44,312 bases of DNA from Dechloromonas sp. GTDB taxonomy: Bacteria > Pseudomonadota > Gammaproteobacteria > Burkholderiales > Rhodocyclaceae. The first letter of the stretch is position 1. Every line of letters starts with the position of its first letter. The DNA is taken from assembly GCA_016791065.1 (NCBI GenBank), contig JAEUOD010000141.1:1-44312 (forward strand), read 5' to 3'. Shown here piece by piece: positions 1,380 to 11,009 of this stretch. The position numbers and the translations under genes were made by a program. The notes below the pieces were generated by a model, which was given only the letters and a program-made list of their open reading frames with translations, was not told the origin of the DNA and did not search any database.

Positions 1380-2751
1380 TTGGCTTGCCGACGCCGAGAC
1401 CGTCTCGGTCGTCGCCCCAGTAGATTGATCGATAGGCTTCGAGTTCATGGTGTTGTCCCAGCATCAGGTTGGCGATATCGAAGAGGGCCTGCCGGGTTCC
1501 CCGGTAGCCCACCCAGGTGCGGGCGTAACCGCCCACGTGGTCGTACTGCGGAAAGCCCGCCCGCATCAGCGGCAGGCCAAGGCGATGCGCCGTTTCGGCG
1601 GCATGGGAATTGGACATGATGAATTGCGCGTCGCCCGCCCTGGCTTCCTTTTCCATGTCTTCCAGATCGCCGACGATGACCTTGCTGATCGGCAGGCCGG
1701 TCAGGCTTTCGTGTTTGTGTGGGCTGACCGCACTGACCACCTCGGCCCCCATGCTGGTCATGAAACGCACCTGCTGGCCGAGCAGATCGGGATCGGCGGC
1801 GAGCGCAACGCGGGCGAAGCCGATCATGAAGTGGCAATCCACCATGGCATCCTGCAGCTGGGCGCGATGGCGCTCGATCTTCTCGGGCACCGGCTTGCCG
1901 GAAATCTCGGCGAGCGCCTGGGTAAAGGCATCGCAATCGTCGAGGCCCATCAGGCCTTCGAAACGGTAGTCGGGCACGCCGCTGCGCTTGTTCAGGATGT
2001 TCGCCGCCTTGTAGAGCGAGGGGCCGACCACCAGCGTCGCCGCCGATTCGCCCATGATCTCGATCTCCGAACGCGGCGTCCCGCCGATGGTCAGCGACGA
2101 GGTTTCAGCCTCGACCAGATGCCCGTCCAGCGAATCGCCGATATCCGGCACGACGATGGGACGCAGGCCGAAAGCCTCGACCCAGTCCTTGATCGCCTCG
2201 ATGTCGCCCGGCGTCAGCATGGCGGAGGCCAGCACATTGACCTGCTTCGGCCGCTTGCCGACGCTTTGTCTCTCCGGTACCAGCGTCTCGATCAGCGACT
2301 CGATGGCCAGCGCGTAGCCACTCTCCAGGCAACCGACGTAATCCGGCGTATTGACCGGCACCACGGCGACATGGGCGAATTCGGGGTGCGCCGCGCGAAA
2401 CTCCTTGAGCGCCCTGCGAATGTCGGTGCCCTGCGTCTCCGACAGGCCGGTAGTCACCAGGCCGATGATGTCCGGCTTGCTCTTGTCGGAAAGGGTACGC
2501 AGCGCCTCGACAATGTTCTCGTCGGCGCCCATGATGGTCGATACCTGATCCATCGCCGTTGTCTGCAGCGGAATCGGCTCGCGGAAGTGGCGTACGAAGA
2601 AAACCTTGCCGAAGGCCGTACAGCCCTGCGAACCATGCATCAGCGGCAAGCTGCGGTTGAGCCCGAGGAAGGCGAGCGAAGCGCCAACCGGCTGGCTGAC
2701 CTTGAGCGGATTTACCGCCAGCGCCTTCTTGGATTGAATGATTTCGGCCAT
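1342..2751 (-). CDS. nifN: NifN, FeMo-cofactor scaffold subunit
   Basis: About 469 residues, a normal NifN length. NifN pairs with NifE in the NifE2N2 scaffold where the iron-sulfur core receives molybdenum and homocitrate. The N-terminal part shows [27 protein letters not shown], whose cysteine matches a cluster ligand of the NifK/NifN family, followed by the nitrogenase component-1 fold. The start at MAEIIQSK (2751) is preferred over an upstream in-frame ATG at 2802, because the sigma54 promoter at 2786-2803 overlaps that codon and would start the transcript downstream of it. Unlike the usual nifEN layout, nifE is about 10 kb away (12699-14099). nifX overlaps its 3' end. Confidence 0.95.
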
Positions 2752-2785
2752 TTGGACATCGTCCCGTTGAGAGTCACCCACTCCC

Positions 2786-2803
2786 AGCAAGGAACGCGCC
2801 AAG
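2786..2803 (-). promoter_or_regulatory. Sigma54 promoter of nifN
   Basis: On the minus strand the sequence reads TTGGCGCGTTCCTTGCT, with the GG (-24) and GC (-12) exactly ten bases apart as sigma54 requires. The predicted transcript starts about 25 bases before the ATG at 2751. A NifA-type site lies about 60 bp upstream. Confidence 0.85.
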
Positions 2804-2845
2804 AAACTAATCGTTTATATACAGACAATTACGACACACGGACGC

Positions 2846-2861
2846 TGTCGCAAACACGACA
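2846..2861 (-). promoter_or_regulatory. NifA upstream activating site of nifN
   Basis: TGTCGCAAACACGACA (plus strand) matches TGT-N10-ACA perfectly and has the longer inverted arms TGTCG/CGACA. The identical 16 bases occur at 31429-31444 before the ferredoxin operon. Confidence 0.88.
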
Positions 2862-2944
2862 AAAGCGCTGCGCACATCACATTTGCATTTTGGTTTGGCA
2901 ATCGGCCCGACTTTGCATATCCTGTCGCCCCGATTATCCCGAGC

Positions 2945-3571
2945 ATGCCCATGCGCTACCAAGGCCGCATTACCTCCTGGAAAGACGACAAAGGCTTCGG
3001 CTTCATCACGCCCAATGGCGGCGGCGAGCCGCTCTTCGTCCATGTCAGTGCCTTGGCGAATCGGCACCGTCGGCCGCAAGGCAACGAGCTGGTCACCTAT
3101 GAAGTCGGCCACGACGCTCGCGGACGACTCCAGGCCAGGAATGTGGGCTTTGTCGGCGAGCATTCGGCGCCGACCGGTGGCAACAAGAGCCGGAGTCCGT
3201 TTCCGCCGCTCTTCGCACTCGGTTTTCTCGCCTTTGTCGCGGCCATGGCTATGCTTGGCCGACTGCCCCCGATCATTCCGGGGATCTACGTCGTCACCAG
3301 CATTCTGGCCTTTCTGGCCTATGGCTTGGACAAATCGGCGGCAAAACGCAATGCCTGGCGCACGAAGGAAAGTACCCTGCACCTCTTCGCATTGCTCGGA
3401 GGCTGGCCGGGCGCTCTGGCAGCGCAACGCGTACTGCGCCACAAATCGGCCAAAACCTCCTTCCAGATCGTATTCTGGGCCAGCGTCGCACTCAATTGCG
3501 GTGCCCTCGGCTGGTTGCTCTCGGCCTCGGGAGCCTCGGTACTGCGGGCTACGCTCGGGCATAGTAGTTGA
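2945..3571 (+). CDS. Cold-shock domain plus DUF1294 membrane protein
   Basis: 208 residues. Residues 1-65 form a cold-shock (OB-fold) domain: GRITSWKDDKGFGFITPNGGGEPLFVHVSAL contains the RNP1-like KGFGFI and RNP2-like LFVHVS motifs. A basic linker and then several hydrophobic segments follow (about residues 85-205), with the DUF1294 signature YGLDKSAAKRNAWRTKESTLHLFALLGGWPGALAAQ. This fusion is known in bacteria but has no assigned function; nucleic-acid binding at the membrane is a reasonable guess. An ATG six bases downstream (2951) is an equally possible start. The gene diverges from nifN, and its upstream region contains the nifN NifA site, which need not act on it. Confidence 0.85.
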   Translation: MPMRYQGRITSWKDDKGFGFITPNGGGEPLFVHVSALANRHRRPQGNELVTYEVGHDARGRLQARNVGFVGEHSAPTGGNKSRSPFPPLFALGFLAFVAAMAMLGRLPPIIPGIYVVTSILAFLAYGLDKSAAKRNAWRTKESTLHLFALLGGWPGALAAQRVLRHKSAKTSFQIVFWASVALNCGALGWLLSASGASVLRATLGHSS

Positions 3572-3602
3572 CTGTTTTCATCAACAAAAATAGGATTTGA
3601 TC

Positions 3603-3745
3603 TTCCCAAGGGGGAGTAGCTCTCCGTCGGCGTGTCGTCAATACGGAAGGTCGCCCGACCTTCCCGGTACGTCGGGTGGCAATCGCAAGAGCTGCGGTTG
3701 CCGCGAGCAAGACCTTTGCCGCACAGGCGAAGGTTCCGTTACCCA
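3603..3745 (+). ncRNA. yybP-ykoY-type (manganese) riboswitch before terC
   Basis: The leader of terC carries both conserved halves of the yybP-ykoY class. The first is AAGGGGGAGTAGCTC near 3608-3622. The second is GCAAGACCTTTGCC at 3707-3720, closed by the near-complement GGCGAAGG at 3726-3733. The class senses Mn2+ (and in some cases pH) and commonly precedes TerC/Alx or Mn exporter genes. TTCCGTTACC (3734-3743) is perfectly complementary to GGTAACGGAA (3807-3816) just before the terC ribosome-binding site. A GC-rich hairpin lies between them (about 3783-3800). These look like the expression platform, acting on translation rather than through a poly-U terminator. The 5' boundary is approximate. 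Confidence 0.8.
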
Positions 3746-3829
3746 GTTCAGGTCGGTCCGGCGCCAGTGCCGGATAAAGGTGCCGCCGGCTTGCGGCGGC
3801 TCGATCGGTAACGGAATGGAGAGCCTGTC

Positions 3830-4840
3830 ATGGAAACAATCGGAACCTGGTGGATGTGGGCGGGATTTTTCGCCATCGTTCTCGTCATGCTGTTCATCGA
3901 CCTCTTCCTGGTCGGCGGCGGCAAACAGCATCGCGTCAGCTTCCGGGAAGCCGCCACCTGGTCGGTGATCTGGGTCGGCGTCTCGCTACTCTTCGCCGGC
4001 GCCTTGTGGTGGCATCTTGACGGCGCGGCGGGACGGGAAATCGCCAACCAGAAGACGCTAGAGTTCGTTACCGGTTACCTGATCGAGAAATCGCTGGCCG
4101 TCGACAACGTTTTCGTCTGGCTGATGCTGTTCAGCTTCTTCGCCATTCCCCTCGAACTGCAGAAGCGCGTGCTGATTCTCGGCGTTTTTGGCGCCATCGT
4201 CATGCGCACTGTAATGATCTTCGCAGGCGTCTGGCTGATCGCCCATTTCCATTGGCTGCTCTACGTTTTCGGCGCCTTCCTGCTGGTTACCGGCGTCAAG
4301 ATGTGGTGGTTCGCCGATGAAAAGCCCGACCTGGCCAACAACCCGCTCATCAAGTGGATACGTGGCCACATGAAATTAACGCACGAACTCCAGGGAGACG
4401 CCTTCTTCGTCTGGCGCGAGGAAGCCGGCAAGCTCGTGCGCTACGCCACGCCGCTCTTCCTCGTGCTGCTCCTGGTCGAGATTTCCGATCTGATCTTCGC
4501 GGTCGATTCGATCCCGGCCATTTTCGCGATCACGACCGACCCTTTCATCGTCCTGACCTCAAACGTCTTCGCGATTCTTGGCCTGCGCGCCATGTATTTT
4601 TTGCTTGCCGACATGGCCGACCGCTTTTCGCTGCTCAAGTACGGCCTCGCCCTGGTACTCATGTTCATCGGCACCAAGATGCTGCTCATCGACATTTTCA
4701 AGATTCCGGTGCTGTTCTCGCTCGGTGTCGTTGCTGCCATCATCGCCACCTCGATAGTGCTGTCTTTGCGCAAGGATGCACACGAGCGGCTTTCCAGCGC
4801 TCACAAGCCCGGCAAAGAGGTTCAGAATCTCTCTGAATAA
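3830..4840 (+). CDS. TerC/Alx-family integral membrane protein
   Basis: 336 residues with about nine hydrophobic segments spread over the whole length. TerC hallmarks are [18 protein letters not shown] (near residue 85) and [21 protein letters not shown] (near residue 220); the acidic residues in these two helices are conserved in the family and fit metal transport. Alx/TerC proteins are linked to manganese export and to tellurite resistance. The Mn-type riboswitch directly upstream favours a manganese role here. The ATG at 3830 follows GGAGAG with 6 bases spacing. The cytochrome c gene starts shortly after its stop. Confidence 0.92.
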
Positions 4841-4867
4841 CCTCCACACATGAACGAAAGGACAAGC

Positions 4868-5278
4868 ATGCGAAGCATCCTCTGCCTCACCACGCTGCTG
4901 GTTGCCGCCTTTTCCTGCACGGCAGCGGACAACGGGATCGACCCCGGCAAGCGCGAATTCCTCAGCAACTGTGCGACCTGCCATGGCGCCGACGGCAAGG
5001 GGGGCGTCCGCCAGCCGAACAGCCTGGCGGTGGCACCACCGGACCTGACACAGCTTTCGAAAGCCAATGCCGGCATCTTCCCGACCGCACGCGTCTACGA
5101 AACCATCGACGGCCGCCTCGCCGTCAATTCGCACGGCCCGCGCGACATGCCGGTCTGGGGGCAGGTCTACACCGCCCAGGCGGCAAGCGGCACGGACAAC
5201 CCGTACGTCGCCGAGGCCAAGGTGCGCCAGCGCATCCACGCGCTGATTGACTATCTCTACCTGATGCAGGAGCGTTAG
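4868..5278 (+). CDS. Small periplasmic mono-heme cytochrome c
   Basis: About 136 residues from MRSILCLTT, which follows GAAAGGA; an upstream ATG at 4850 would add six residues. Residues 1-20 form a signal peptide (RSILCLTTLLVAAFSCTAA). The single heme motif CATCH lies near residue 36, with a downstream methionine in PRDMPVW that can act as the axial ligand. This is a class I cytochrome c for periplasmic electron transfer; its partners are not identifiable here. It lies 27 bases downstream of terC and may be co-transcribed with it. Confidence 0.85.
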   Translation: MRSILCLTTLLVAAFSCTAADNGIDPGKREFLSNCATCHGADGKGGVRQPNSLAVAPPDLTQLSKANAGIFPTARVYETIDGRLAVNSHGPRDMPVWGQVYTAQAASGTDNPYVAEAKVRQRIHALIDYLYLMQER

Positions 5279-5318
5279 GCGGACTTGCTTAACTCACCCG
5301 GCAGGCGCTCGCTGAGCG

Positions 5319-5699
5319 TCAGCGGATACCGGAATCCGCCACCAGCTTGCCGCCCGAAGCCATCACGCGTTCGCTGAGTGCCTGCACCGTGGCCTGTGCC
5401 TCTTCGGCAGCCTCTTCCATTTCCTCCGCCGTCAGCGGCCGAGCCAGCGCTTCCAGTTCGATGCGTTGAATATTCGGGCATTTCTCGACCACGCCCTGCA
5501 GGATGCTATCTACCTTCCTGGCGCCCAGCCCAAACAACACCTTCTCCAGCACGAAGAGCCGGACAACGATGATTTCTTCCGGGCTCTGCACACTGGCCTG
5601 CACCGCCTGAATCTCCTGGCGCAGATAGCCCCGGAACTTGAGCGGCGTCACTTCGGCGGGAACCTGCAGGACTGTGGAACGGAACTGACCTTCGATCAT
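5319..5699 (-). CDS. Hypothetical protein
   Basis: 126 residues, not recognised. It begins MIEGQFRSTVLQVPAEVTPL. The middle is a mix of charged and hydrophobic residues (PEEIIVVRLFVLEKVLFGL), and the C-terminal third is an acidic, alanine-rich helix (TAEEMEEAAEEAQATVQAL) that could form a coiled coil. There is no signal peptide and no transmembrane segment. Base composition resembles the surrounding genes, and the frame is well supported by a GC-rich third codon position. It lies downstream of, and in the same direction as, the nucleotidyltransferase gene, 71 bases after it. Confidence 0.6.
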   Translation of the reverse strand: MIEGQFRSTVLQVPAEVTPLKFRGYLRQEIQAVQASVQSPEEIIVVRLFVLEKVLFGLGARKVDSILQGVVEKCPNIQRIELEALARPLTAEEMEEAAEEAQATVQALSERVMASGGKLVADSGIR

Positions 5700-5770
5700 G
5701 GCGGGCTGGCAAATCAGGGAAAGCGGCGATTTTCGCAGAAGGCTAAGGGCGAGGAAAGCCGGACGCCCGC

Positions 5771-6475
5771 TTAGACCAGCACCCGTCGTAGCCCCCGGAT
5801 TTTACTCCACAGCACCGCCTTGGGCTGCTTAATAGCCATCACCAACATGCAGCGCTCCAGCCAGTCCGGGCGATTCTGCAAACGCTCGATGGCGCGTTCA
5901 AGGTCGCGGGCAATCGCCTCGCCGTAGGCGCCCTGTGCCTTGAGAACAGCCTTGCTCAGCAACGGCAACGAAGGGCTCATCATGGCCAGATCAATCACGT
6001 CGCGGCTGAACACCCCGTCGTCGCTCCACCGATCCGCATTGGCCAGCAACTTGCTGGTCGCCATATCGAGCGGCGTCAGCGTTGAAACGCCCCATAGCTG
6101 ATCTTTCCTGCCGGCCGCCGCAAGCTCGATGCGGCCTTCGAGGACGATTTCAAACTTGATCGGCAGATCATCCACCAGCAGCGTCGTGCGAATTCCATAC
6201 TGATCGGCGCGCACCTCCCGTGCCAACCGAAACTGCTCGCCATCCGGCCGCAATAAGCCGGCAAAGCCCGCGTCTCCAGTCAACAACTGGCGCAGACGGC
6301 GATAGCTGTCGAGGTCCGACACCAGAAAATCCATATCGACCGATTCGCGATACTCGCCAAAACGCAAGGCCATCGCCGTGCCGCCGCCAAACAGGCAATT
6401 CGCCTCACGCAACAAATCGCTATCCAGCGCCGACAACACCCGCGCAATCCGCCGATGGTGCGACCGCTCAAACAT
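5771..6475 (-). CDS. AbiEii/AbiGii-type nucleotidyltransferase, toxin-like
   Basis: About 234 residues from MFERSHHRRIARVLSALD. The pattern CLFGGGTAMALRFGEYRESVDMDFLV (near residues 25-52) is the GG-x-S/T...D-x-D active site of the DNA polymerase beta-like fold used by AbiEii toxins. A later helical region (LTPLDMATSKLLANADRW) is also typical. AbiEii enzymes modify RNA or other targets in abortive infection and toxin-antitoxin systems. The start overlaps the upstream HTH gene by 8 bases (ATGTTTGA), so they form one unit. Whether it acts as a toxin in this strain is inference from the family and the pairing. Confidence 0.82.
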   Translation of the reverse strand: MFERSHHRRIARVLSALDSDLLREANCLFGGGTAMALRFGEYRESVDMDFLVSDLDSYRRLRQLLTGDAGFAGLLRPDGEQFRLAREVRADQYGIRTTLLVDDLPIKFEIVLEGRIELAAAGRKDQLWGVSTLTPLDMATSKLLANADRWSDDGVFSRDVIDLAMMSPSLPLLSKAVLKAQGAYGEAIARDLERAIERLQNRPDWLERCMLVMAIKQPKAVLWSKIRGLRRVLV

Positions 6476-6971
6476 CCCCGGCACCGGGCGCCTCAGCGTC
6501 ACCGAAAGCCAGTCGCAAGGCATCGATCAAATTCCGCTCACGCGGCAGCAAGGCCGCCTCATCGACATGCCGCCAGTTGCGCTCATAAATCCCCAGCGCC
6601 TCGCGCGGCGTCAATTCATCCGTTCCCTGAACCTGCCACGCCAGTTGCTGCAAAGCCGGGAAATCAGCCAGACGAACCCGCGCCGGCAACCAGCCAGCCT
6701 TGTCGTCCGCCACCGGTTGCGAAGCCTCGTCGGCCACAACCGTCGCCGAAAAAGTCATCCCCAACGCCGCCAGAACATTCAAGTAAGCCCCCATCGTCAC
6801 CGAAGGCTCTCCCTGCTCAATGCGATGCACGCTCACCCGCGACATTCCTGAAGCCTCCGCCAGCGCCGTCGCACTCACCCGCAAAGCCTTGCGCTGCGCA
6901 CGAATGCGGGCTCCAAGCGCGGCAAGCTGATCGGTGACGACTGCGGGGGTGGGTGGGGATTTGGCCGGCAT
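6468..6971 (-). CDS. XRE-type helix-turn-helix protein, antitoxin partner
   Basis: About 167 residues from MPAKSPPTPAVV. Residues 15-75 form an HTH_XRE domain: LGARIRAQRKALRVSATALAEASGMSRVSVHRIEQGEPSVTMGAYLNVLAAL. The C-terminal half (residues 95-165) has no name I recognise but is typical of antitoxins paired with AbiEii-like nucleotidyltransferases. It overlaps that gene by 8 bases and would be translated first. Such proteins normally repress their own promoter; the AT-rich stretch immediately upstream (6972-7030) is the likely operator. Upstream in-frame ATGs at 6983 and 7022 exist, but they lie in that AT-rich region. Confidence 0.82.
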   Translation of the reverse strand: MPAKSPPTPAVVTDQLAALGARIRAQRKALRVSATALAEASGMSRVSVHRIEQGEPSVTMGAYLNVLAALGMTFSATVVADEASQPVADDKAGWLPARVRLADFPALQQLAWQVQGTDELTPREALGIYERNWRHVDEAALLPRERNLIDALRLAFGDAEAPGAGDV

Positions 6972-7149
6972 AGTGTATCTCATAATAGGCAAAAATGCGC
7001 AATTGTCAATATTGAGAAACATATTTGTGAAATTTTCAGTGGTGTCGGGGCGGATTAAACGATCAGGATTGGTTTGTAGAGGCTTCCATGGTCAACCTGA
7101 AAAAACGGCCAAATTTGGAGAGGCCAGAAAGCTAAATGTCTCTGACCCC

Positions 7150-7172
7150 TTTGGCTGCTGCTTTGGCTGCTG
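7150..7172. repeat. Short direct repeat in the gap upstream of the HTH gene
   Basis: TTTGGCTGCTG occurs twice (7150-7160 and 7162-7172), separated by one base, in the 213-base gap between the HTH gene and the reverse transcriptase. Otherwise this gap shows an AT-rich stretch and no ORF I can support. Confidence 0.4.
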
Positions 7173-7184
7173 ACCCGATTGGCG

Positions 7185-8909
7185 CTAATAGGGAATGTCA
7201 TCACCCAAATCAAAAAAAACGGCCTCATCTTCATCATCCTGCTCCAACTCAGCATGTCTATTTGAGTAGGCTCTTGAATTTAGGTATGAATCAGAAACCT
7301 CCGGAAATTCAAAGTAATCAAACAAATCATCATCTGAATCAAGCATCCGATTTTTATCATCGTCGGAAAGGGTCGTGTTTTCTTTCCAGACGAAAATCGG
7401 GTCAGGTAGTCTGTTTATATCAAAAAACCTTACGGATTCCGACGCCAGCCATGAATACCCTGGGTGGCTTATAGTTGTTTGATTTAAGTGACTAATCCAT
7501 CCTTGCTCTGCACCTTCGTAGCACAAAAGCCAATGCTCGCAATTGAATGTTGAATGATCCGGTAATAGGTGACGATCAATTTTCTTCTTTAGCTTTCCAA
7601 TTGACTCTAAATAAAGTGCAATTAATGTCGGCACTGAACCTAGATTGCTCTGCTCTATTGCTCTTACAGCATCTCCACTAATTTGTACGCCAAGCCTAGC
7701 TGCTAGCCAGAGTGTCCAAGCTACCTCGCTTTCGTGTTTTGCGGATGCGTGCTCACAGATGATATTGTTTATAACCCCTCTCCAGCCATGCGGCGATATC
7801 TGTAATGGGTATCCGTATCTGAAATATGTGTCAGCTATTAACACCACATCTTGAATTGTATTCGGATAGGCCAGAGCAGATCTAAGTAGAAATGCCTCAA
7901 AGACAGGCCAGTTGTCTTTCTTTATAATCTCACTCTGCATTTTTCGGATTGCAAATTGCATGACATTTTGCTCTGGCTCTCTTTCTGCCATCGAAAATGC
8001 CATATCAAAATAGTGAGTCAGTTGCCTGCGCTGCTTAACCTTTTCTGGTGATAGCTCGTAGTCAGAGAATGAGTGTGTCCATGCATCTTCCATTAGTTTT
8101 TCACACGGTATTATTTTTGTTTTAGGCCCATTCATTTTTAGCTCATACTCCGACAGGGAGTTGTTTAGCTTATTTAATGCGAGAACAGCTTCGGAATAGT
8201 CCTCAAAAAATAAATAAAAGTCATCAACGTATCTAAGCCCTGTTGGCCATTTCCCTAACTTATCCCGTAGCGAAATATCAACCGATGTTCCAATAATCTC
8301 AGATATTATGTGTGACGTGTCAGGGCCAATGGGAATTCCTGCGGTTTGATTTCGCTGGCACTCTGAAACTGCAGCATCTAGTTGATTCCCAAACAACGAT
8401 GCTCCTCTATTGCGTTTCGCGTTGGCCTTTCCATGTATCGCCCACGAAATAGAGTGGGTATATATCGTTGGAAAGAAGTGAGATATATCAGATATTAGAA
8501 CATACCTTGCACCACGCGAAAGTAATAGTTTTTTATCAGGTAGTTGATGCGTAGGTGTTATTAGAATAGAGCGACCAGGATTTGAAGAAAATGCAGGTCT
8601 GCTTACAGATATTCTAGACTTCGAAAAATGCCCATTAATTGATGACCAATTTTCGCAAATAATTTTAGAAAGCTTTAGTTGTGGTATTGGATTGGTAATT
8701 GCTAGTGGTCGCCTGTTGTGGCCAACTCGAGGGGCAGAGTATTTTTCATACGCATATTCTTTGTGCTTTGTGTCAAAAACCCATGCTGGAATCGGTTTTA
8801 AAACTAAATTCGCATATTTATCGCTATTGAAACATGGAGGAACTTGAGCCGGGAAAAATCCTTCTTTTAAAACCCAATTTAAGCGCCTATTGGTATTTCG
8901 AGGGGCCAT
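7185..8909 (-). CDS. Reverse transcriptase, probable antiviral (unknown/DRT-like group)
   Basis: 574 residues, with the ATG at 8909 behind GGAGAAG. Reverse transcriptase motifs are in order: SDISHFFPTIYTHSISWAIHGK (motif A, near residues 138-160), GIPIGPDTSHIISEIIG (motif B, near 190) and LRYVDDFYLFFE (motif C, the YVDD catalytic site, near 220-235). A long C-terminal part (residues 290-574) has no domain I recognise and ends acidic (EQDDEDEAVFFDLGDD). There is no maturase or zinc-finger domain of group II introns, and no retron msr/msd was seen. The length and extra C-terminal region suggest a defence-associated or otherwise unassigned RT. Base composition is far more AT-rich than its neighbours, with codons ending in A or T, a clear sign of transfer. 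Confidence 0.85.
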   Translation of the reverse strand: MAPRNTNRRLNWVLKEGFFPAQVPPCFNSDKYANLVLKPIPAWVFDTKHKEYAYEKYSAPRVGHNRRPLAITNPIPQLKLSKIICENWSSINGHFSKSRISVSRPAFSSNPGRSILITPTHQLPDKKLLLSRGARYVLISDISHFFPTIYTHSISWAIHGKANAKRNRGASLFGNQLDAAVSECQRNQTAGIPIGPDTSHIISEIIGTSVDISLRDKLGKWPTGLRYVDDFYLFFEDYSEAVLALNKLNNSLSEYELKMNGPKTKIIPCEKLMEDAWTHSFSDYELSPEKVKQRRQLTHYFDMAFSMAEREPEQNVMQFAIRKMQSEIIKKDNWPVFEAFLLRSALAYPNTIQDVVLIADTYFRYGYPLQISPHGWRGVINNIICEHASAKHESEVAWTLWLAARLGVQISGDAVRAIEQSNLGSVPTLIALYLESIGKLKKKIDRHLLPDHSTFNCEHWLLCYEGAEQGWISHLNQTTISHPGYSWLASESVRFFDINRLPDPIFVWKENTTLSDDDKNRMLDSDDDLFDYFEFPEVSDSYLNSRAYSNRHAELEQDDEDEAVFFDLGDDIPY

Positions 8910-8959
8910 TTATCTTCTCCGAGAATTTAGATGCTGACCAAAGGAATAGGTAGATACAT

Positions 8960-10735
8960 TTAATTTGCTCCAACCACAATCAACTCCCTCGTCGCCCTTG
9001 TCATAGCCACATACAACAACCGCGCCTCTTCGTCCTTCCGCCCTTCATCTACAACTATCCCAGCACCGGGAATCGCCACCAGCGGAAACTCCAGCCCCTT
9101 GCAGCTATGCATGGTCAGGAACTTCACGGTGTCTTCCTTTTCGGCGAAAGTGATGTCGTCCTGATAGGTGACCGGGATGCCGGCTTTGCGTAGCTTGGCC
9201 AGCACCGGCTTGCCGATACCGTAGTCGCGGTAGATGACGGCCATCTCGCTCCATGGGGTGCCGGTTTTGTGGGCTTCCTTAAGGTGTTTGGCGATGTAGT
9301 CGGCTTCTTCCTGAATGCTCGGGAGCTTGATGAGCAGGGGTTTCGGGCCGTGGCGGCCGGCGCTGATGGGGGCGACGAGGGGGACGCCGTCTTCGTCCGA
9401 GGCGCTGGGTTTGAGCAGTTCGCTGGCGATGCCGCAGGCCAGTTCGAGTACTTCCTGCGTGTTGCGGTAGTTGATCTTGAGGATGGTAGTGCGGCCCTGG
9501 GCCTGGATGCCGAGGCTCTTGAAGCTGAATTTGTTGTGCCGTCCATTGCCGTAGATGGATTGGGCGTCGTCGTAGAGGACGAGCAGGGAATTGGTGCTCG
9601 GATTGACCATCTGGGCGACGAGCTTGAGCCATTCGGGCTGGAAGTCGTGGCCTTCGTCGATGAGCACGGCGTCGTACTGGCCGGCCGGGATGATGTTGGC
9701 GTCTACGGCGCGGATGATACGGTCGACGAGTTCGCTGGCGTAGGCATCGCTGTCCTTGCCGTTTTCCGGCAGGCCGGCGTTGAAGGCGACAAGTTGGGCG
9801 CGGCACCATTGGTGGAAGGTGTGGACGTGCACTTTGTCGGCCAGCCCCTTGGCGGCCATCGTGCGGGCCAAGCGCTTGGCCAGGGTGCGGTTGTAGCAGA
9901 GGATGAGAATCGGCCGGGCGCAGATTCTGGCGAGGTGTTCGGCGCGGTAGCCGAGGATCAGCGTCTTGCCGCTGCCGGCGACGCCGTGGATGACGCGGTG
10001 GCCTTCGCCGAGGCTGCGGGCGAGTTGTTCCTGCTGCAGGTCCATGACGCGGACGATGTCGGGGATTTCCGGTTCCTGATCGTCGAAAAGGCCATTCTGT
10101 GTCGGCACAGCGATGCGGATTTCGGGGAAGAGGTGCCAGCGGATGCGGTCAATCTGCGGCAGGGCGAGCGGCACGCTGCGGGCGAATGGCAGCATGCCCC
10201 ACAACCGTTCCTGAAAGGCTTCGGCGTCAACGCTTTCGGTCATTTCGTCCTGACAGATGACGCGGTGCGGCTCGATGACGTCGCCGAGGTTGGTGCTGTC
10301 GAATTGCTTGCGGCTGATGTTGGCAAGCACGATGCCATAGCTCCACGGGAAGAGCAGTGTGCCTTTCTTGCTGCCGCTGTTGATGGTCAGTTGCGGGTCG
10401 CGTTGCAGCAGGTTGCTGACTTCATGGGCGTATTGCCGGGCTTGTTCGAGCGGGTTGGCGACGCGCTTGAGACCGGTATTGGTGAGGATGCTGGCGCTCG
10501 TGCGGTCGATGTCGCGGATGGTGTCGAGCTTCCAGTCCTTGACTTCCAGCACGAGCACGCCGCGGCGCGGGTTGAAGACAACGAAATCGGGATGGACGTT
10601 GCGTGGCCCAAGCGGTACGTCGTACCAGAGCAGCCAGTCGTCTTCGAGCTTTTGTTCGAGGCGGTAGGCGAAGCGTCGCTCACCGCCTGTCATATTCGAC
10701 ACGCAGGTGCCGATCGCCGGTATCAGCTCAGCCAA
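8960..10735 (-). CDS. NERD-domain UvrD/Rep-like superfamily 1 helicase
   Basis: 591 residues. Residues 15-120 form a NERD (nuclease-related) domain: GERRFAYRLEQKL, then HPDFVVFNPRRGVLVLEVKDW, whose D...E-x-K pattern is the nuclease-fold active site. Helicase motifs follow: Walker A GVAGSGKTLIL (near 250), VLIDEGHDFQPEW (Walker B, near 355), LLVLYDDAQSIYG (motif III, near 388), KINYRNTQEV (motif IV region), FLTMHSCKGLEFP (motif V, near 540) and LLYVAMTRATRELIV (motif VI). The frame opens with TTG at 10735 behind a G-rich ribosome-binding site; an ATG at 10693 is the alternative. NERD helicases occur in DNA-processing and defence settings. It is read ahead of the reverse transcriptase, 50 bases apart, but has host-like GC content. 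Confidence 0.87.
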   Translation of the reverse strand: MAELIPAIGTCVSNMTGGERRFAYRLEQKLEDDWLLWYDVPLGPRNVHPDFVVFNPRRGVLVLEVKDWKLDTIRDIDRTSASILTNTGLKRVANPLEQARQYAHEVSNLLQRDPQLTINSGSKKGTLLFPWSYGIVLANISRKQFDSTNLGDVIEPHRVICQDEMTESVDAEAFQERLWGMLPFARSVPLALPQIDRIRWHLFPEIRIAVPTQNGLFDDQEPEIPDIVRVMDLQQEQLARSLGEGHRVIHGVAGSGKTLILGYRAEHLARICARPILILCYNRTLAKRLARTMAAKGLADKVHVHTFHQWCRAQLVAFNAGLPENGKDSDAYASELVDRIIRAVDANIIPAGQYDAVLIDEGHDFQPEWLKLVAQMVNPSTNSLLVLYDDAQSIYGNGRHNKFSFKSLGIQAQGRTTILKINYRNTQEVLELACGIASELLKPSASDEDGVPLVAPISAGRHGPKPLLIKLPSIQEEADYIAKHLKEAHKTGTPWSEMAVIYRDYGIGKPVLAKLRKAGIPVTYQDDITFAEKEDTVKFLTMHSCKGLEFPLVAIPGAGIVVDEGRKDEEARLLYVAMTRATRELIVVGAN

Positions 10736-11009
10736 GACCGCCCCCTATGCTTATGTATTCCTCCGATTATGCCATTCCACAGCCAACGGGCGATTGGCTA
10801 TTGAATCTGGCATACGGCTACCGAGGTTCCACTTGATCTTGCTCGTACAAGGAGCAACCCTGCCGAGCGCCTACCACCTTGCCATTCCACACCGGCAGGC
10901 AGAGAATCGTGACAAGGGGGTTACGTTATCGTGTCAGCCTTGCCACCGCTCCGGATAATCGCCCGGCACGCCGGAAGCCCTCGCTTGCCGCTGCCAGGCT
11001 GACGCTACC

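Follow-up and report, generated by a model that had tools for sequence, protein, structure and literature searches.

A NERD-UvrD helicase gene in Dechloromonas whose 3' end is probably a slot for exchangeable defence-type cassettes

The window we analysed is a stretch of 44,312 nucleotides from Dechloromonas sp. (contig JAEUOD010000141.1 of assembly GCA_016791065.1). On its minus strand lies a NERD-UvrD helicase gene followed by a reverse transcriptase (RT) gene. We consider it quite probable that the helicase gene, together with its own upstream region, is a constant element whose 3' end serves as a slot for exchangeable, co-directional, AT-rich cassettes, many of them of defence type. In the window the cassette would be an RT of the DRT6 (UG12) kind. 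Comparison of sequences identifies the RT, shows the helicase motifs to be intact, finds varied cassettes at one site with sharp boundaries at the 3' end of the helicase, and reveals two helicase-cassette pairs that remain linked although their surroundings differ.

An earlier note on this DNA had described four clustered minus-strand genes, each of a type seen in defence islands. The open reading frames (ORFs), called by a simple script, do lie where they were claimed, and their PADLOC models (Drt6/Drt4 for the RT, the NERD+UvrD model C3a187 for the helicase, AbiEi and AbiEii for the other two) agree with the defence label, as do the Pfam domains: RVT_1 in the RT, NERD and UvrD N/C in the helicase, a helix-turn-helix (HTH) domain in the XRE gene and AbiEii in the nucleotidyltransferase. 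The features of the slot are as follows (aa, amino acids).

10736–10777, minus strand: stretch 5' of the helicase that moves with it, with a -10-like element TGGCATAAT and a ribosome site AGGGGGCGG, both by eye
8960–10735, minus strand: NERD-UvrD helicase of superfamily 1 (SF1), the constant gene; 591 aa (PADLOC C3a187, Pfam)
8960–8975, minus strand: 3' end of the helicase, variable, where the constant gene meets the cassette (19 congeneric copies)
7174–8970, minus strand: exchangeable AT-rich cassette of about 1.8 kb, comprising the helicase 3' tail, the RT and 11 bp past the RT stop
7185–8909, minus strand: DRT6/UG12 reverse transcriptase, the cassette gene; 574 aa (RVT_1, PADLOC)
7141–7153, minus strand: REP-like (repetitive extragenic palindromic) repeat CAAAGGGGTCAGA, directly behind the cassette gene, with 2 mismatches to AATAGGGGTCAGA
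5319–5699, minus strand: g5319, a conserved gene of 126 aa and the downstream anchor, likewise near the slot in loci L220, L222, L223 and L229

The limits of the cassette block were set by comparison with L220/L122 and L229 (we number loci with L and genomes with G). The helicase starts at a TTG, with its ribosome site ahead, and ends 50 bp before the RT, whose ATG is preceded by GGAGAAG, again a ribosome site by eye. The RT is AT-rich: its GC content is 0.409 (0.357 at third codon positions), that of the helicase is 0.615 and that of the flanking genes 0.61.

Cassettes at the 3' end of the helicase

At an identity of at least 83%, the helicase occurs in 21 of the 76 genomes of the host genus. 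Copies at 46–49% identity (G377, G381, G393) fell below the E-value limit and are not among the 21. Many of the genomes are incomplete bins or assemblies and, since related genomes are not independent, we counted families of cassettes rather than genomes. After leaving out four loci with less than 260 bp downstream (L097, L098, L225, L226), 17 loci were readable, and 15 of these carry an AT-rich gene or small operon behind the helicase, with a GC content of the lead gene between 0.36 and 0.51. All 15 cassettes point in the direction of the helicase, at a spacing of -8 to +128 bp.

An all-against-all BLASTP comparison sorts the lead genes into 13 families. The RT is common to the window and L220, and a HEC-01 ATPase to L092 and L223. 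PADLOC recognises seven of the 13 lead genes. In the Pfam and PADLOC scan of L092 the ATPase is accompanied by DUF4276. Other cassettes encode a GmrSD two-domain protein resembling Orf5/HEC-06 (L093), a GmrSD_N + HEPN protein resembling NsnA (L091), a putAbiC/AbiP-like protein (L224), a PD-T4-10_B-like protein (L227), AAA_21 with DUF4435 (L230) and, by Pfam only, DUF4747 (L221). L222 holds a three-gene set with a weak PDC-S54 match on its third gene only, and the cassettes of L219, L094, L096 and L229 have no Pfam or PADLOC match above the cut-off.

In 315 kb of congeneric control DNA, only 2 of 227 ORFs of at least 150 aa have a GC content of 0.51 or less, and none of 66 co-directional neighbours within 150 bp is GC-poorer by 0.11 or more. 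If orientation were random, the chance of finding 13 of 13 families co-directional would be 0.0001.

Different cassettes occupy one site in L220, L222 and L223 (genomes G827, G818 and G815). Their helicase stretches are 94–95% identical in pairwise comparison, and identity resumes at a hairpin followed by a run of T, GCCGGGCATG(C/T)CCCGGCTTTTTT, at 92–96%, with further stretches at 86–95%. Between the shared flanks lie 1.8 kb (L220), 2.2 kb (L222) and 3.0 kb (L223) of unrelated DNA, apart from about 90 bp before the hairpin that L222 and L223 share. In L220, which bears the RT, the shared flank resumes 6 bp past the RT stop. The window and L229 agree in the helicase (84%) and in the AbiE pair and g5319 further down (70–82%), with either the RT or a 403-aa gene in between.

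The helicase can also keep its cassette when the surroundings differ. The window and L220 have 3,604 bp in common at 88.9% identity, a block that opens 42 bp ahead of the helicase and closes 11 bp past the RT; the upstream neighbour is PHO4 in the window and a gene for a 4Fe-4S protein at L220, and g5319 lies further downstream in both. Identity between the window and L122 ends at 10777, and the stretch upstream of the helicase also aligns in congeners. L092 and L223 likewise have the helicase and HEC-01 in common over 3.67 kb at 90%, in differing surroundings. Helicase and cassette have DNA identities of 92.0% and 86.6% in the window/L220 pair, and of 89.9% and 91.9/92.7% in the L092/L223 pair.

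The slot offers a sharply bounded and naturally replicated case of defence-gene exchange, with the same helicase, nearly the same junction and cassettes of 13 BLASTP families within one genus. The lead genes without a match above the cut-off (L219, L222, L094, L096, L229) are candidates for new defence genes. The unit is surrounded in L221 and L224 by duplicated pieces of the 4Fe-4S protein gene, and in L221 by pieces of the helicase as well; these are possible traces of earlier recombination.

The reverse transcriptase, the helicase and their pairing

The earlier note had described the RT as a protein of 574 residues with a large unassigned C-terminal region. The length is right, and the C-terminus can now be assigned: the fold matches that of the solved DRT6 structure (PDB 9wy8), including the C-terminal helical part, and an acidic tail lies within residues 539–574. 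The YVDD motif occupies residues 227–230, the first catalytic aspartate is D141, and D141, D229 and D230 are invariant in the 25 sequences of the structure alignment. Among PADLOC models, Drt6 (PDLC03748) scores 531.9 bits and Drt4 (PDLC03752) 276.4 bits, and two further models labelled Drt4 give 532.7 and 446.2 bits. A phylogeny, which the earlier note had proposed as a way to class the RT, places it away from DRT4 (UG15) with a support of 100/100, on branches long enough to call for caution; the DRT4-type sequences form a separate group in this tree of 36 sequences, 26 of them from the 80 best RT loci. DRT4 was also rejected by NCBIfam, where NF041749 scores 249.8 bits against a cut-off of 450 bits. 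The RT is 23–24% identical to DRT4 and 18–19% to AbiK. No match turned up when viral contigs were scanned with the RT, and a tblastn search of 50,697 phage records gave matches in 8, none of which reached 80% query coverage.

By analogy, the RT most likely works like other Class 1 UG RTs. These synthesize DNA without a nucleic-acid template, are sometimes protein-primed, and become toxic once the product is stabilised during infection, a mode of action reported for DRT4 and suggested for DRT6 (PMC13314766, PMC13213688, PMC13174585).

In the helicase, a single chain unites a NERD nuclease domain with a UvrD-type motor; the protein matches PADLOC C3a187 over its length at 597 bits. Its motifs are intact (HPDFVVF and LVLEVKDW in the NERD domain, then GVAGSGKT, VLIDEGHD, TMHSCKGLEF and LLYVAMTRATRE), and the NERD, Walker and helicase motifs are identical or nearly so across 18 aligned genus copies, that of the window included. 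Towards the 3' end, the similarity among 19 congeneric copies breaks off within roughly the final ten codons. Outgroup helicases mostly carry a C-terminal tail (L078 does not) that is missing in the clade of the window. We found no unusual DNA-level conservation of the attachment-site kind at the 3' end, where the identity of fourfold sites is 0.68–0.76 in the last two blocks vs 0.55–0.84 elsewhere.

The codon usage of the helicase changes towards its end. Over the last 50 codons of the window copy (8960–9110) and 17 congeners, the third-position content of G is 0.50–0.78 and that of C 0.04–0.16 (0.34 in L097); in the body of the gene the values are 0.21–0.34 and 0.46–0.63. Most of the 19 outgroup copies do not show this switch; L078 and L082 do. 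In L077 the 5' part of the helicase is present a second time, incompletely, 1.9 kb downstream of the complete gene.

Could RT and helicase form a dedicated system of their own, as the earlier note had supposed? The two genes are adjacent, the pair recurs in L122/G827, and PADLOC includes a model for an RT-associated NERD helicase. That model (RTasNERD-Hel) does not match at full length; its fit is weak and partial, at 45.7 bits against 597 for C3a187, with the best stretch at residues 224–432 of 591. We compared the best 80 of 478 RT loci (78 with an upstream ORF, some on short contigs), and only one, L122, has the NERD helicase: there the RT adjoins it in the same order as in the window, with a gap of 17 bp and with different surroundings. 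In L167, a weak partial match to the helicase (31%) lies downstream. In the genus, RTs of the window type (E-value of at most 1e-20) occur in 4 of the 76 genomes. Those of the window genome and G827 are close relatives, both behind the helicase; those of G822 and G388 are 31–32% identical, in genomes outside the 21 that bear the helicase. Conversely, 19 of these 21 have the helicase without the RT, usually with another AT-rich gene instead. Because co-occurrence in the genus is limited to the window genome and G827, the pairing is real but local, and we regard a dedicated RT-NERD helicase system as very improbable and largely refuted by its distribution. Of the proposed operon, adjacency, the 50-bp gap and the conserved order in L122/G827 hold up; transcription may be shared. 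Since RT homologues are rarely found with a NERD helicase and the helicase is mostly found without an RT, the window locus is probably one instance of an exchangeable slot, and neither a dedicated four-gene nor a dedicated two-gene system.

Hotspot, partnership and the movement of cassettes

One could also argue that the helicase is simply a frequent hitch-hiker at a place that gathers defence genes. In congeners the site is anchored by a gene with a Fer4_5 domain upstream (NosR-like by eye only) and one with a FliD_C domain downstream. Between these genes there is only an empty gap of about 300 bp in L299 and a stretch of about 940 bp, free of the helicase, in L297; an unrelated 269-aa gene (GC content 0.49, matched by neither Pfam nor PADLOC) occupies the site in L293 and shares its right boundary. 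Of the helicase, L294 and L295 retain only some 40 and 113 bp at the 5' end, and past this remnant L294 carries a 722-aa AAA_13 gene (PDC-S06, 870 bits) and an AbiE pair. Its gene content shows the Fer4_5/FliD-like site to be an ordinary hotspot as well, with the helicase as one resident. It is comparable to the core defence hotspots known from Pseudomonas (PMC10250203) and to island hotspots (PMC12629846), which have conserved flanks and variable defence content, with a lower GC content in cDHS1. The present case differs from them in that a defence-type helicase, immediately upstream of the cassette and pointing the same way, is itself the constant partner, and in that the helicase-cassette unit is found in other surroundings too. 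The resemblance to a core defence hotspot holds for the Fer4_5/FliD-like site of congeners and not for the window's own site beside PHO4; the helicase was not found in 19 congeneric PHO4 regions, so that site is not a common one. Helicase and cassette also occur without the Fer4_5 and FliD-like flanks in the window and in L092, L093, L096 and L227, and every time it is the helicase 3' end that forms the junction, which a hotspot defined by its flanks does not explain alone. An ordinary hotspot and nothing more is a possible account, to which we give less credence than to the slot.

A second alternative is a functional partnership, in which the helicase is a shared sensor or DNA-processing part and the cassettes are alternative effectors that it activates, as GajB activates GajA in Gabija according to PMC10952713. 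Helicase and cassettes would then be a modular two-part immune system: a constant chassis with one DNA-processing sensor, and operon-linked effectors that would be exchanged through recombination at the helicase 3' end (the DRT6 RT, HEC-01 ATPase, GmrSD nucleases, AbiC-like and unknown genes). This rather doubtful scheme would suit the uniform direction and tight spacing of the cassettes, the two pairs that keep together with similar divergence of both parts, and the conservation of the helicase motifs in copies whose cassettes vary. A Drt6 gene also lies 15 bp behind a UvrD-type helicase in four rhizobial plasmids. On the other hand, in 79 of the 80 best RT loci the stretch examined contains nothing closely related to the helicase, the weak match in L167 aside, DRT6 is described as a single-gene system in PMC13213688, two helicases lack a cassette, and distant helicases mostly stand alone. 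We therefore think a true partnership unlikely; it is, like the plain hotspot, compatible with a slot.

Gabija itself resembles the window locus in that a UvrD-type helicase stands beside another defence gene. The window helicase differs by its fused NERD domain, and its match to GajB is partial (82.6 bits). Gabija was rejected, as no GajA model is among the matches listed (best 25 per protein) for the four window genes; by Pfam, the neighbours are PHO4, the RT, HTH/AbiEii, cytochrome c and TerC. The rhizobial plasmids (L026, L028, L029, L030; locus 2123–10832) are a second setting in which a DRT6 gene follows a UvrD-type helicase. An AAA/TOPRIM ATPase gene, the helicase and the RT are co-directional there and followed by an XRE gene and a beta-family gene, and the models in L026 are GajA, GajB, Drt6 and PD-Lambda-2, which puts the Drt6 gene behind GajAB.

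Cassettes could instead be moved in an integron-like manner or by a REP/Y1 transposase, with the repeat AATAGGGGTCAGA as the mobility signal. Repeats of this type stand behind the cassette in L221, L222, L223, L224 and L229, and at 7141–7153 of the window, where the repeat search gave 1 match vs 0.41 expected by chance. The 76 genomes hold 31 exact copies, in places palindromic with TCTGACCCC, and five lie right behind helicase cassettes, against about 0.009 expected, in a non-independent test whose pattern was drawn from these loci. Two other copies are found beside a Y1_Tnp (IS200-like) transposase gene (L263, L289), and none of 19 congeneric control loci contains the 9-mer GGGGTCAGA. Yet L219, L220, L091, L092, L093 and L227 have no exact 9-mer behind the cassette (L091 and L092 offer less than 200 bp there), and copies stand behind ordinary genes too, which is why AATAGGGGTCAGA may be a terminator-like REP. 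Movement driven by the repeat seems improbable to us.

Several observations weigh against the slot. L095 and L228 have the helicase and ample room but no cassette; the next genes have a GC content of 0.58 on the opposite strand and of 0.64 at a distance of 795 bp. Six of the 13 lead genes (L219, L221, L222, L094, L096, L229) lack a PADLOC match, and of these only L221 has one in Pfam. As a Pfam domain is common to the families of L091 and L093 (GmrSD_N) and another to those of L092 and L230 (AAA_21), the number of independent cassette kinds is at most 13. Nor is the helicase always kept: the cassette-bearing copy of L229 (G810) is frameshifted, with two overlapping matches and an open cassette ORF, and only 5' remnants are left in L294 and L295. 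Outside the close clade, among 23 distant helicase loci with more than 500 bp downstream (L101, one of the copies at 46–49% identity, included), five have a co-directional ORF within 150 bp, and one of these (L086) is clearly AT-richer than its helicase. A second copy of the helicase 3' end or a junction repeat was not found in 16 loci, and no recombinase was identified, though no integrase family search was made.

How would an exchangeable slot work? The cassette would be read from the promoter region of the helicase and co-transcribed with it, as this region (TGGCATAAT and the ribosome site) moves with the gene. Exchange could proceed by recombination between helicase genes, or by some other machinery, on one side and in a downstream flank on the other. 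By analogy with DRT4 and DRT6, the RT would make DNA without a nucleic-acid template during infection, so that growth stops. The helicase would process DNA as a second, mostly independent layer of defence; it may degrade or remodel phage DNA alone or assist the cassette.

DRT6, NERD-UvrD helicases, AbiE and defence hotspots are already known. In the literature searched, which covered few subscription papers, we met no account of exchangeable cassettes placed co-directionally behind a constant NERD-UvrD helicase. The locus raises two testable questions: whether effectors that are unrelated to each other have UvrD-type helicases as a shared partner, and by what route defence genes are exchanged when no recombinase is visible.

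The AbiE pair and the surroundings of the locus

Behind the RT lies the pair that the earlier note had called AbiEii-type, an assignment that agrees with the PADLOC and Pfam matches. Its features are the following.

6982–7009, minus strand: promoter-like site of the AbiE pair, TTGACA-16-TATTAT (consensus match)
6468–6971, minus strand: AbiEi-type XRE antitoxin gene, part of a separate neighbouring module (reassigned start; longer ORF 6468–7022)
5771–6475, minus strand: AbiEii-type nucleotidyltransferase toxin gene of the same module (reassigned start; longer ORF 5771–6523)

AbiEii scores 65.8 bits in Pfam and 238.6 bits in PADLOC, and the adjacent AbiEi 70.6 bits in PADLOC, as expected of a type IV toxin-antitoxin pair. 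The AbiEii start is more likely at 6475, because ATGTTTGA overlaps the XRE stop, and the XRE start is better placed at 6971, because the promoter-like site (7009–6982) falls inside the longer reading. With these starts the two genes overlap, as in other AbiE systems, and some 210 bp separate the RT from the start of the pair (162 bp for the longer reading). It looks like a transcription unit of its own. Promoter and terminator scans of the region gave counts close to chance, with 6 promoter-like sites vs 3.3 expected.

A four-gene unit including AbiE was rejected: the RT-helicase pair has its closest relative in L122, and the surrounding 17.7 kb yielded no AbiE gene. These surroundings do hold a 105-bp stretch, 71% identical, that resembles the region upstream of AbiEi. 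The AbiE pair is a separate module in the window (5771–6971), and it recurs near the slot behind differing cassettes in L224, L229 and L294.

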